DNA of 45,077 nucleotides from a virus. The first letter of the stretch is position 1; every line of letters begins with the position of its first letter. Positions 25,374 to 37,367 of the stretch are shown here, piece by piece. Under the pieces are notes generated by a model that did no database searches, was not told where the DNA came from, and worked only from the letters and a program-made list of their open reading frames with translations. Location of the stretch: positions 1 to 45,077 of the IMG/VR virus record IMGVR_UViG_3300035689_000029, one strand, 5' to 3'. A program made the position numbers and the translations under genes.

Positions 25374-27050
25374 ATGAAGAATAAACGGCTAAAATTATTA
25401 AAATCATTAATGGAGCAAACACAAACATTTGATCCTGATGCGAATCAACATTTTTCAAAACTTTCACCAGAAGATCAAACTAAGGCAAGAGAAAGATTTG
25501 AAAGATTTGCTAGAGTTGGAGCCATAAACCCAAACACCGCGACTCCATTTGGTTGGAGGAGAGCAACAGGGCCTGTTCATGATCGTGATTTTCATGGAAG
25601 AACCACGGAAGACTATAAAAAAATATATCATGCAAATCGAAGAAGCGGTGCTTCACACGAAGAAGCATTGCAACATGTTCAGGGAATGAGAAAAAAAGCA
25701 CATGAAGAGGGACTTGCTGCAATAAAAACTGGTAGAGCAGAACATCTTCGTGGCGAAAGAAATGCTAGAAATTTAACAGCAGCAGATCAAATTAAAAGAG
25801 ATAGTAGGGAATCTACTGACTTATTTCATGCAGCAATGGGCGCAGCCGGTAAGGCTCATGAGTATTTTACCAATGCTACTCAATCTTGGGACAAACTATC
25901 TCCAGAGGCTACCAAACACCTTTCTTCCATTACACGAATGGCAAGACACGTTATACACAATACGGTTATCGGTGGTTTGAGAAAGGTTTCTGGTGATTTT
26001 GTAAAACACGCACAAGATAGATTTACTTCCAATTTTTCTGGAGTTAGACCTTCAGATTTTGGTTATAGTAAACCACATGACATTGTTCCAAGTTTAATAC
26101 GACCAACAAGAGTTCAGCAAATACTAAAAAATTATTCTAATCTGTCCGGTTATCATGGACCCCATAAAGAATATGTTCATGATTTGTATCAGGGGCCCGA
26201 TAGAGATGGTTTTGATCCCGGTGGCACTGACAGTAAACGAATGCATGATGTAGCATCACATATTGGTGAACTTGGAGACATACATCCATTCGCAAGACAC
26301 CTTCATTTGGGTGCAAGCCATAGAACATCGTCCTCTACTTCTGCAATGCACCACTTTGAAGATATTATAGGTCATCATATGACCAGTCATAGATCTTTAG
26401 CAGGAACTAGCGATACACCACACGAAGGATTCAGTAGACAGTGGACTAGTAGTTCTCCTATAGGTGCTTATAAATTTACACCACAACACGGAGATGTTGG
26501 AAGCAGAGTTGACGCAGAAAAAAGAAAAGATGTAGATCAGACTATTAGATCTGGAATGCATGATGTTATAGGCCACATTTGGGCAATACCAAATTTGTCT
26601 AGAAGTGATAGAAGAAATTTAATGAAACATTTTGAAGTACAAATGAGGCATCATAATGTAGCAGCAATGGCAAATCCTCGTATGTACGCTGAACATCACG
26701 CAGGGAAAGCAGCACAAGAAGCCGAAGCAGCAGCCAGCCAACGAGAACAAGCCAGAGAAAGAGCCAGGCAAAGAGCAAGTGCTGGTGGCTCTGGTGAAGC
26801 ACCACCACCAAGAAGAAGTAGATGGGCTCATAGAGAACAACCACATGAGATTTTGGGTATTGGTCCAAATGCTTCTCCTGCTGAAATTAAAAGAGCATTC
26901 AGAAAATTATCATTACAGCACCATCCAGATCAGGGTGGAAGTGCTGAAATGTTTAAAAAGATAAACGATGCTCATGCACATATGAGTGGCAAGTTAAATG
27001 AAATGGTAATGATGCTTGCCGAATGGATCACAAAAAGATATAAAAAATAA
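25374..27050 (+). CDS. Large late protein with C-terminal J domain
   Basis: 558 aa. N-terminus MKNKRLKLLKSLMEQTQ could be a packaging peptide (LME). The middle is Arg/His-rich and contains repeated HH- and SS-rich segments. Residues about 455-485 are A/R/Q/E-rich, then a J domain: HEILGIGPNASPAEIKRAF, LSLQHHPDQGGSAEMF, with the HPD motif that stimulates Hsp70/DnaK ATPase. A phage J-domain protein might recruit DnaK during assembly or right after injection. The late octamer stands 6 nt before ATG. Phosphorylation-type or enzymatic domains are not seen. Confidence 0.78.
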   Translation: MKNKRLKLLKSLMEQTQTFDPDANQHFSKLSPEDQTKARERFERFARVGAINPNTATPFGWRRATGPVHDRDFHGRTTEDYKKIYHANRRSGASHEEALQHVQGMRKKAHEEGLAAIKTGRAEHLRGERNARNLTAADQIKRDSRESTDLFHAAMGAAGKAHEYFTNATQSWDKLSPEATKHLSSITRMARHVIHNTVIGGLRKVSGDFVKHAQDRFTSNFSGVRPSDFGYSKPHDIVPSLIRPTRVQQILKNYSNLSGYHGPHKEYVHDLYQGPDRDGFDPGGTDSKRMHDVASHIGELGDIHPFARHLHLGASHRTSSSTSAMHHFEDIIGHHMTSHRSLAGTSDTPHEGFSRQWTSSSPIGAYKFTPQHGDVGSRVDAEKRKDVDQTIRSGMHDVIGHIWAIPNLSRSDRRNLMKHFEVQMRHHNVAAMANPRMYAEHHAGKAAQEAEAAASQREQARERARQRASAGGSGEAPPPRRSRWAHREQPHEILGIGPNASPAEIKRAFRKLSLQHHPDQGGSAEMFKKINDAHAHMSGKLNEMVMMLAEWITKRYKK

Positions 27051-36551: not shown

Positions 36552-36623
36552 GCGGGTGTAACTCAGTGGTAGAGTGTTGGTTTTCCAAACCAATTGTCGA
36601 GGGTTCGATCCCCTTCTCCCGCT
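36552..36623 (+). tRNA. tRNA-Gly (anticodon TCC)
   Basis: Acceptor GCGGGTG/CTCCCGC (one mismatch), anticodon stem TTGGT/ACCAA with loop TTTCCAA, T-arm GAGGG-TTCGATC-CCCTT, discriminator T. Confidence 0.92.
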
Positions 36624-37060: not shown

Positions 37061-37069
37061 CTTTGGTAT

Positions 37070-37367
37070 TGTTGATCTCGGATAGAAACACGAACAGCAC
37101 TGGGGTTCGAATCCCCACGACTCCATTAGCCTAACCGAAGGATTCTGCAATTCCTTAGAGATGGCGAGACAAGTCCTCGTAGCAGCGGGGCACAATTAGG
37201 GGTCGAAAGGAATCGACTGGCGTAGAGTATTGAAGAAGGAGATACCCGACACGGGTAACAAGTGTCGTAAATAAACAGTTGCAAATATAAAAGCCGCACC
37301 AATGCGGATGGCTGCTTAAAGCAGTGGGGTTTCCCGGTTTTCCCGCGACTGAAAAACCGGGTTTTTT
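37070..37367 (+). ncRNA. ssrA: Circularly permuted (two-piece) tmRNA
   Basis: The 3' (acceptor) part comes first: T-arm TGGGG-TTCGAAT-CCCCA (37101-37117), acceptor strand CGACTCC (37118-37124), discriminator A 37125. After a 73-nt spacer the 5' part starts with GGGGTCG (37199-37205), which pairs with CGACTCC with one G-U, then GGAATCGACTGG as in tmRNA. Pseudoknot PK1 is clear: ACCC-GACAC-GGGT with GACAC also pairing to GTGTC (37244-37266). The resume codon GCA is at 37281, and the tag is ANIKAAPMRMAA, stop TAA 37317. A terminator follows at 37333. The 5' limit of the acceptor piece is uncertain (at least 37075, where ATCTC can pair with GAGAT at 37239). It would rescue stalled ribosomes and tag peptides for proteolysis. 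Confidence 0.9.
37333..37367 (+). terminator. Rho-independent terminator of the tmRNA gene
   Basis: CCCGGTTTT pairs with AAAACCGGG; followed by TTTTTT. Confidence 0.88.

Follow-up and report, generated by a model that had tools for sequence, protein, structure and literature searches.

In the published layout of two-piece tmRNA, a coding piece with pseudoknot PK1, the tag and pseudoknot PK2 is accompanied by a separate acceptor piece (PMC3985003). Phage genomes have yielded 53 two-piece tmRNA structures, 50 of them marine or aquatic, including those of the myophages Melnitz and Mosig (PMC9004378). By DNA similarity to permuted viral tmRNA, the T4-like Synechococcus phages S-CAM1 and S-CAM3 are further seen to have permuted tmRNAs with a short intervening sequence (IVS), for the most part without annotation, and pattern scans of viral contigs gave 31 permuted tmRNAs with an IVS of 60–90 nt and more than 100 with one of 4–20 nt. 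One-piece phage tmRNAs have the standard gene order and no IVS, and are in these respects unlike the gene dealt with here. Those of Bxz1-like mycobacteriophages and Bacillus phage G nevertheless resemble it in being phage-encoded and in having a tag (PMC4131195).

The window, i.e. the whole stretch of DNA that was analysed, corresponds to an entire IMG/VR record (45,077 bases), and there is strong support for its positions 37065–37364 (plus strand) being a phage-encoded, circularly permuted (two-piece) tmRNA gene. Its anatomy agrees with the published two-piece layout (PMC3985003), and it shares with bacterial permuted tmRNAs the gene order, an acceptor with G3-U70, the T arm and the succession PK1, tag, PK2. 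A sequence-only reading had considered a permuted tmRNA unusual for a T4-like phage, a view that does not stand given Melnitz (Methylophilales) and Mosig (Pelagibacter; PMC9004378) and S-CAM1/S-CAM3, all of which are like the window in this regard. The kind is already known, and what is new is a separate, phage-only lineage of permuted tmRNA. From the cyanophage form it differs both in its tag, which is short and of the ...MAA type rather than long and NNIV-type, and in its IVS, which is structured and of 73 nt in comparison to 4–8 nt in cyanophage-type loci. The features are as follows.

36552–36623, plus strand: tRNA-Gly gene upstream of the tmRNA
37065–37125, plus strand: acceptor (3′ tRNA-like) piece, from the start of the RF04321 match, its 5′ end being approximate
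37065–37069, plus strand: P2 distal strand GGTAT, pairing with ATACC at 37242–37246
37101–37117, plus strand: T arm, TGGGG-TTCGAAT-CCCCA, from sequence and covariation
37118–37124, plus strand: acceptor stem 3′ strand CGACTCC, pairing with 37199–37205 and carrying the U of G3-U70
37126–37198, plus strand: IVS of 73 nt, predicted to be removed and, from IVS comparison, a structured module
37199–37205, plus strand: acceptor stem 5′ strand GGGGTCG, with which the mature coding piece is predicted to begin after RNase P-type cleavage
37244–37266, plus strand: PK1, with S1 37244–37247/37253–37256 and S2 37248–37252/37262–37266
37281–37319, plus strand: tag frame ANIKAAPMRMAA (37281–37316) followed by TAA (37317–37319)
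37312–37324, plus strand: hairpin CTGCT-TAA-AGCAG, whose loop holds the stop codon, from sequence
37324–37361, plus strand: PK2, with S1 37324–37328/37342–37346 and S2 37333–37341/37353–37361

In a covariance search of the window, RF04321 (tmRNA_permuted) matched 37065–37319 over the full model (1–213) with 63.9 bits, the family cut-off being 47 bits, and an E value of 3.5e-10. The Rfam search proposed in the sequence-only reading was borne out for this family and not for the alpha and cyano models. These, with a beta model, are bacterial lineage models that were merged as RF04321, and in the window all three remain below cut-off (RF01849, alpha, 19.4 of 50; RF01850, beta, 24.1 of 84; RF01851, cyano, 25.3 of 70), with one relative, L134, reaching 53 of 84 bits with the beta model. 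ARAGORN does not call a permuted tmRNA in the window; it does so in the relatives L152, L155 and L157, with a tag of exactly ANIKAAPMRMAA. A script scan of both strands required a T arm, an acceptor of 7 bp that includes G3-U70, and an H-type pseudoknot, correctly ordered; it matched the window at a single place and had no match in 200 simulated Markov windows.

That the acceptor half with its T arm is encoded upstream of the coding half, as first proposed, is confirmed by coordinates and by the RF04321 match, though the start of the acceptor piece has to be moved from 37070 to about 37065; its initial sequence, GGTATTGTTGAT, is conserved among relatives. Also confirmed is the pairing of the two halves as a 7-bp acceptor, all 7 pairs of which form in 59/59 distinct sequences, with double changes at positions 4–7 (position 4 occurs as G-C, C-G, U-A and A-U). 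The third pair is a G-U wobble in the window and this G3-U70, which is the alanine identity element, is invariant. In the T arm 5 pairs show compensatory changes and pairing is present in 58–59 of the 59, and the P2 distal helix is paired in all 59, with GACAT/ATGTC and GGCAT/ATGCC as compensatory forms. For the T arm, both parts of P2 and PK1-S2, the compensatory changes in these 59 sequences exceed those in column shuffles. After the discriminator A37125 comes TTA, so that CCA is not encoded and would need to be added; those of the window's other tRNA genes that were checked are likewise without encoded CCA. The P2 distal helix (37065–37069/37242–37246) and PK1 S1 compete for 37244–37246. 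As both are conserved and share these bases, one of the two may be confined to the precursor, with a switch between precursor and mature RNA being possible.

PK1 has ACCC/GGGT as S1 and GACAC/GTGTC as S2, the latter swapped for GTTTC/GAAAC in a second clade and, as read by eye, GGGGC/GCCTC in L327. Verification of positions upholds the initial description of an H-type pseudoknot ending 14 nt 5′ of the resume codon, GCA at 37281–37283, which has an A at −4. The tag frame with its Met-Ala-Ala end was likewise correctly seen; its tag is identical in 19/69 distinct relatives. The stop-codon hairpin, for which L145 has a compensatory T/A to C/G form, is similar to the helix at the end of the tag in other tmRNAs. 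What was overlooked is PK2: the apparent plain 3′ terminator is a second pseudoknot, with S1 GTGGG/CCCGC and S2 CCCGGTTTT/AAAACCGGG, and S2 together with the T6 that follows it (37362–37367) can double as an intrinsic terminator. Among relatives, several of which have a separate terminator after PK2 S2, S1 GTGGG/CCCGC is conserved and S2 covaries (TGATCC/GGATCA, GACCA/TGGTC, GGTCA/TGACT). The tag is accordingly flanked by PK1 upstream and PK2 downstream, both covarying, as is called for in a permuted tmRNA.

The IVS has a GCC/GGC stem and two hairpins, A (loop CTGCAA) and B (loop TAGCAG), with complementary loops. It is of type 1, one of four forms in the family: 5–6 nt, 39 nt, type 1 of 71–99 nt and type 2 of 122–173 nt. 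The type 1 fold is closed by a GCC/GGC stem of 3 bp (GGC/GCC in L127) and contains hairpins A and B, whose loops, CTGCAA in A and TTGCAG or TAGCAG in B, can pair. A compensatory pair, CTGTAA/TTACAG, is present in L155, the window has a 4-bp loop-loop core (CTGC/GCAG), and a kissing pair is possible. Type 2 (L131, L132, L145, L165, L175, L181, L191, L195) is unrelated to type 1, structured and closed by GGTTAG/CTAACC. In the 5–6 nt forms (L120, L137, L138, L140, L142, L147, L153, L156, L168, L179, and also L182, L183, L190) a tiny loop closes the acceptor stem. Such short forms were considered as a special trait of the window's family, an idea discarded on finding them common in other phage tmRNAs. 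Likewise rejected was the IVS as a mobile RNA element: in motif searches of viral contigs, 45/45 type 1 and 9/9 type 2 matches are inside this tmRNA gene. At lenient thresholds no Rfam family, whether ribozyme or other known RNA, was found in the window's IVS or in either main IVS type. Since it is confined to this tmRNA gene, the type 1 IVS most likely aids folding or processing, and the existence of 5-nt forms shows that it is dispensable.

About 80 related viral contigs were found, 78 having a motif that spans PK1 through the resume codon, and searching for the IVS motif adds others, divergent PK1 forms among them. In the window gp32 is recognizable (phrog_224, 6.6e-117) and is 82–90% identical to gp32 of 16 uncultured viral contigs, 7 of which carry the tmRNA above cut-off; none of the contigs searched that have a more distant gp32 does so. 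With gp23 present at E<1e-130 in 7 related contigs, the window and its relatives are T4-like on gp23 and gp32. These proteins are 51–58% identical to those of named phages, mostly cyanophages. No DNA similar to the window's tmRNA was detected in 50,697 phage records or in plasmids, and the PK1/lead motif is in 0/84,980 species genomes by a scan that required a near-exact motif and that diverged cellular cousins could escape. Since no cellular genome has the motif, the family has presumably persisted in phages. Together, the sub-threshold scores with the lineage models and these two null results argue for a lineage separate from known permuted tmRNAs. Neither psbA nor psbD was found in 36 related contigs, all fragments, and an attempt at host assignment failed, with gp23/gp32 distant from named phages and no cellular motif match. 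SmpB was also not found in the 36 (about 2.2 Mb), which would make the tmRNA dependent on host SmpB.

Knowledge of processing, charging and tagging in the tmRNA family in general allows us to infer how the product would come into being and act. The tmRNA would be transcribed as a single precursor within a tRNA-rich region, with host RNase P cutting at G37199, and RNase Z/E and 3′ trimming generating the end after A37125. These tRNA-processing cuts would release the 73-nt IVS, leaving acceptor and coding pieces (about 61 and 166 nt) that P2 and the 7-bp acceptor stem would join, and the host CCA-adding enzyme would supply CCA to the former. Charged with alanine by host AlaRS via G3-U70 and bound by host SmpB, the tmRNA would enter stalled ribosomes. 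Translation would resume at GCA 37281, adding (A)ANIKAAPMRMAA, with the ribosome freed at TAA and the tagged product marked for a host protease. The benefit to the phage may be that ribosomes are kept free, or that faulty products are recycled, during infection; the sequence-only reading had proposed ribosome rescue late in infection or the tagging of particular proteins as possible roles.

The least expected point of the analysis is a difference in tag register among relatives. Among 69 distinct contigs, the tag lies in the GCA register in 40 and in the +1 register (CAA...AMAA-stop) in the remaining 29 (~42%), which include L121, L122, L126–L131, L134, L144, L148 and L150. A tag frame ending xAA-stop is retained, in one register or the other, in 69/69. 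The GCA group has no internal stops in its tag frame. Nor does the +1 group in its AMAA frame, where single-base codon differences are 138 synonymous versus 109 nonsynonymous, compared to 57/297 for one of the remaining frames and 97/182 for the other, an excess that may be partly due to the tag hairpin rather than to coding alone. The canonical register would yield a junk tag in the +1 group, e.g. AKNNC*. An assembly error is an unlikely origin of the +1 register, as 29 contigs with different tags are involved, several without an A-run. L151 (GCA register) and L129 (+1 register, predicted tag QNIIAAPMAMAA) are nearly identical in tRNA domain and PK1 and different in tag frame.

In published work the frame is determined by nucleotides −6 to +1, the A at −4 acting as ruler (PMC3985003, PMC2481249), and in E. 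coli tmRNA the change A86C at −4 shifts resumption to +1 (PMC2481249). In both register groups the lead through GTTGCAA is identical, with the same PK1 and the same nucleotides from −6 to +1, the search motif having fixed the upstream sequence so that forms with compensating changes there would escape it. Under the known resume rule the +1-register tags would be unreadable. A tentative reading, to which we would give somewhat less than an even chance, is that the resume point in this phage family is not set by upstream sequence, in which case the tag frame would depend on something else, such as host SmpB, the tag or leaky two-frame resumption. One contig, L324 (minus strand, ~300–600), has a natural C at −4, the equivalent of E. 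coli A86C, and a +1-register tag, QTMIANKLAMAA; the other +1-register contigs keep A at −4. Natural +1-register relatives make the choice of resume codon on tmRNA testable, with L151 and L129 as a matched pair.

Anatomy, conservation, covariation and spread over phage contigs are directly established here, and it is highly probable that an uncultured T4-like phage here carries a genuine, working permuted tmRNA gene, with its host-dependent processing, charging and tagging being what we infer. Counting against this are the 36 related contigs in which SmpB was not found, the missing ARAGORN call in the window, the competition between the P2 distal strand and PK1 S1, and the +1 tag register of about 42% of relatives. 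An improbable though not negligible alternative is a decoy, in which the processed phage RNA binds SmpB or stalled ribosomes and mainly inhibits host tmRNA. There is a precedent in mycobacteriophage DS6A, whose tmRNA, consisting of the tRNA-like domain only, inhibits host tmRNA (PMC4131195, PMC11915505), and the junk tag of the canonical register in 29/69 relatives also speaks for a decoy. However, PK1 and PK2 would be needless for that purpose and are conserved, every relative retains an xAA-stop tag frame in either register, and the +1 group has the synonymous excess and lacks internal stops.

Functionless descent is much less probable still. A decaying remnant acquired from a host genome could account for the low scores with each of the three lineage models, but compensatory change preserves all helices across diverged contigs, and the motif, being in no cellular genome, has persisted in phages, so that this explanation is graded close to refuted. 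That an ordinary tRNA remnant and unrelated hairpins merely look alike by chance would fit with ARAGORN making no call in the window; it is refuted by the covariation of the two halves and by the ARAGORN calls in relatives, and both the Rfam E value of about 1e-10 and the absence of matches in the 200 simulated windows are against it. A working permuted tmRNA adds a widespread phage-only two-piece lineage that common tools miss or miscall, and phage control of ribosome rescue is therefore under-annotated.

The surroundings of the gene also merit mention. The window, a phage contig of 45 kb, has 13 tRNA genes (1810–36623), and in relatives tRNA-Gly/tRNA-Tyr is directly upstream of the tmRNA. 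At 25374–27050 the window encodes a protein of 558 aa whose C-terminal part is a DnaJ domain; no other part of it has a match among the 50,697 phage records. Directly downstream of the tmRNA in L122, L150, L320 and L328 is the gene for a small, very basic protein, MPNSKQRITSRKHK...
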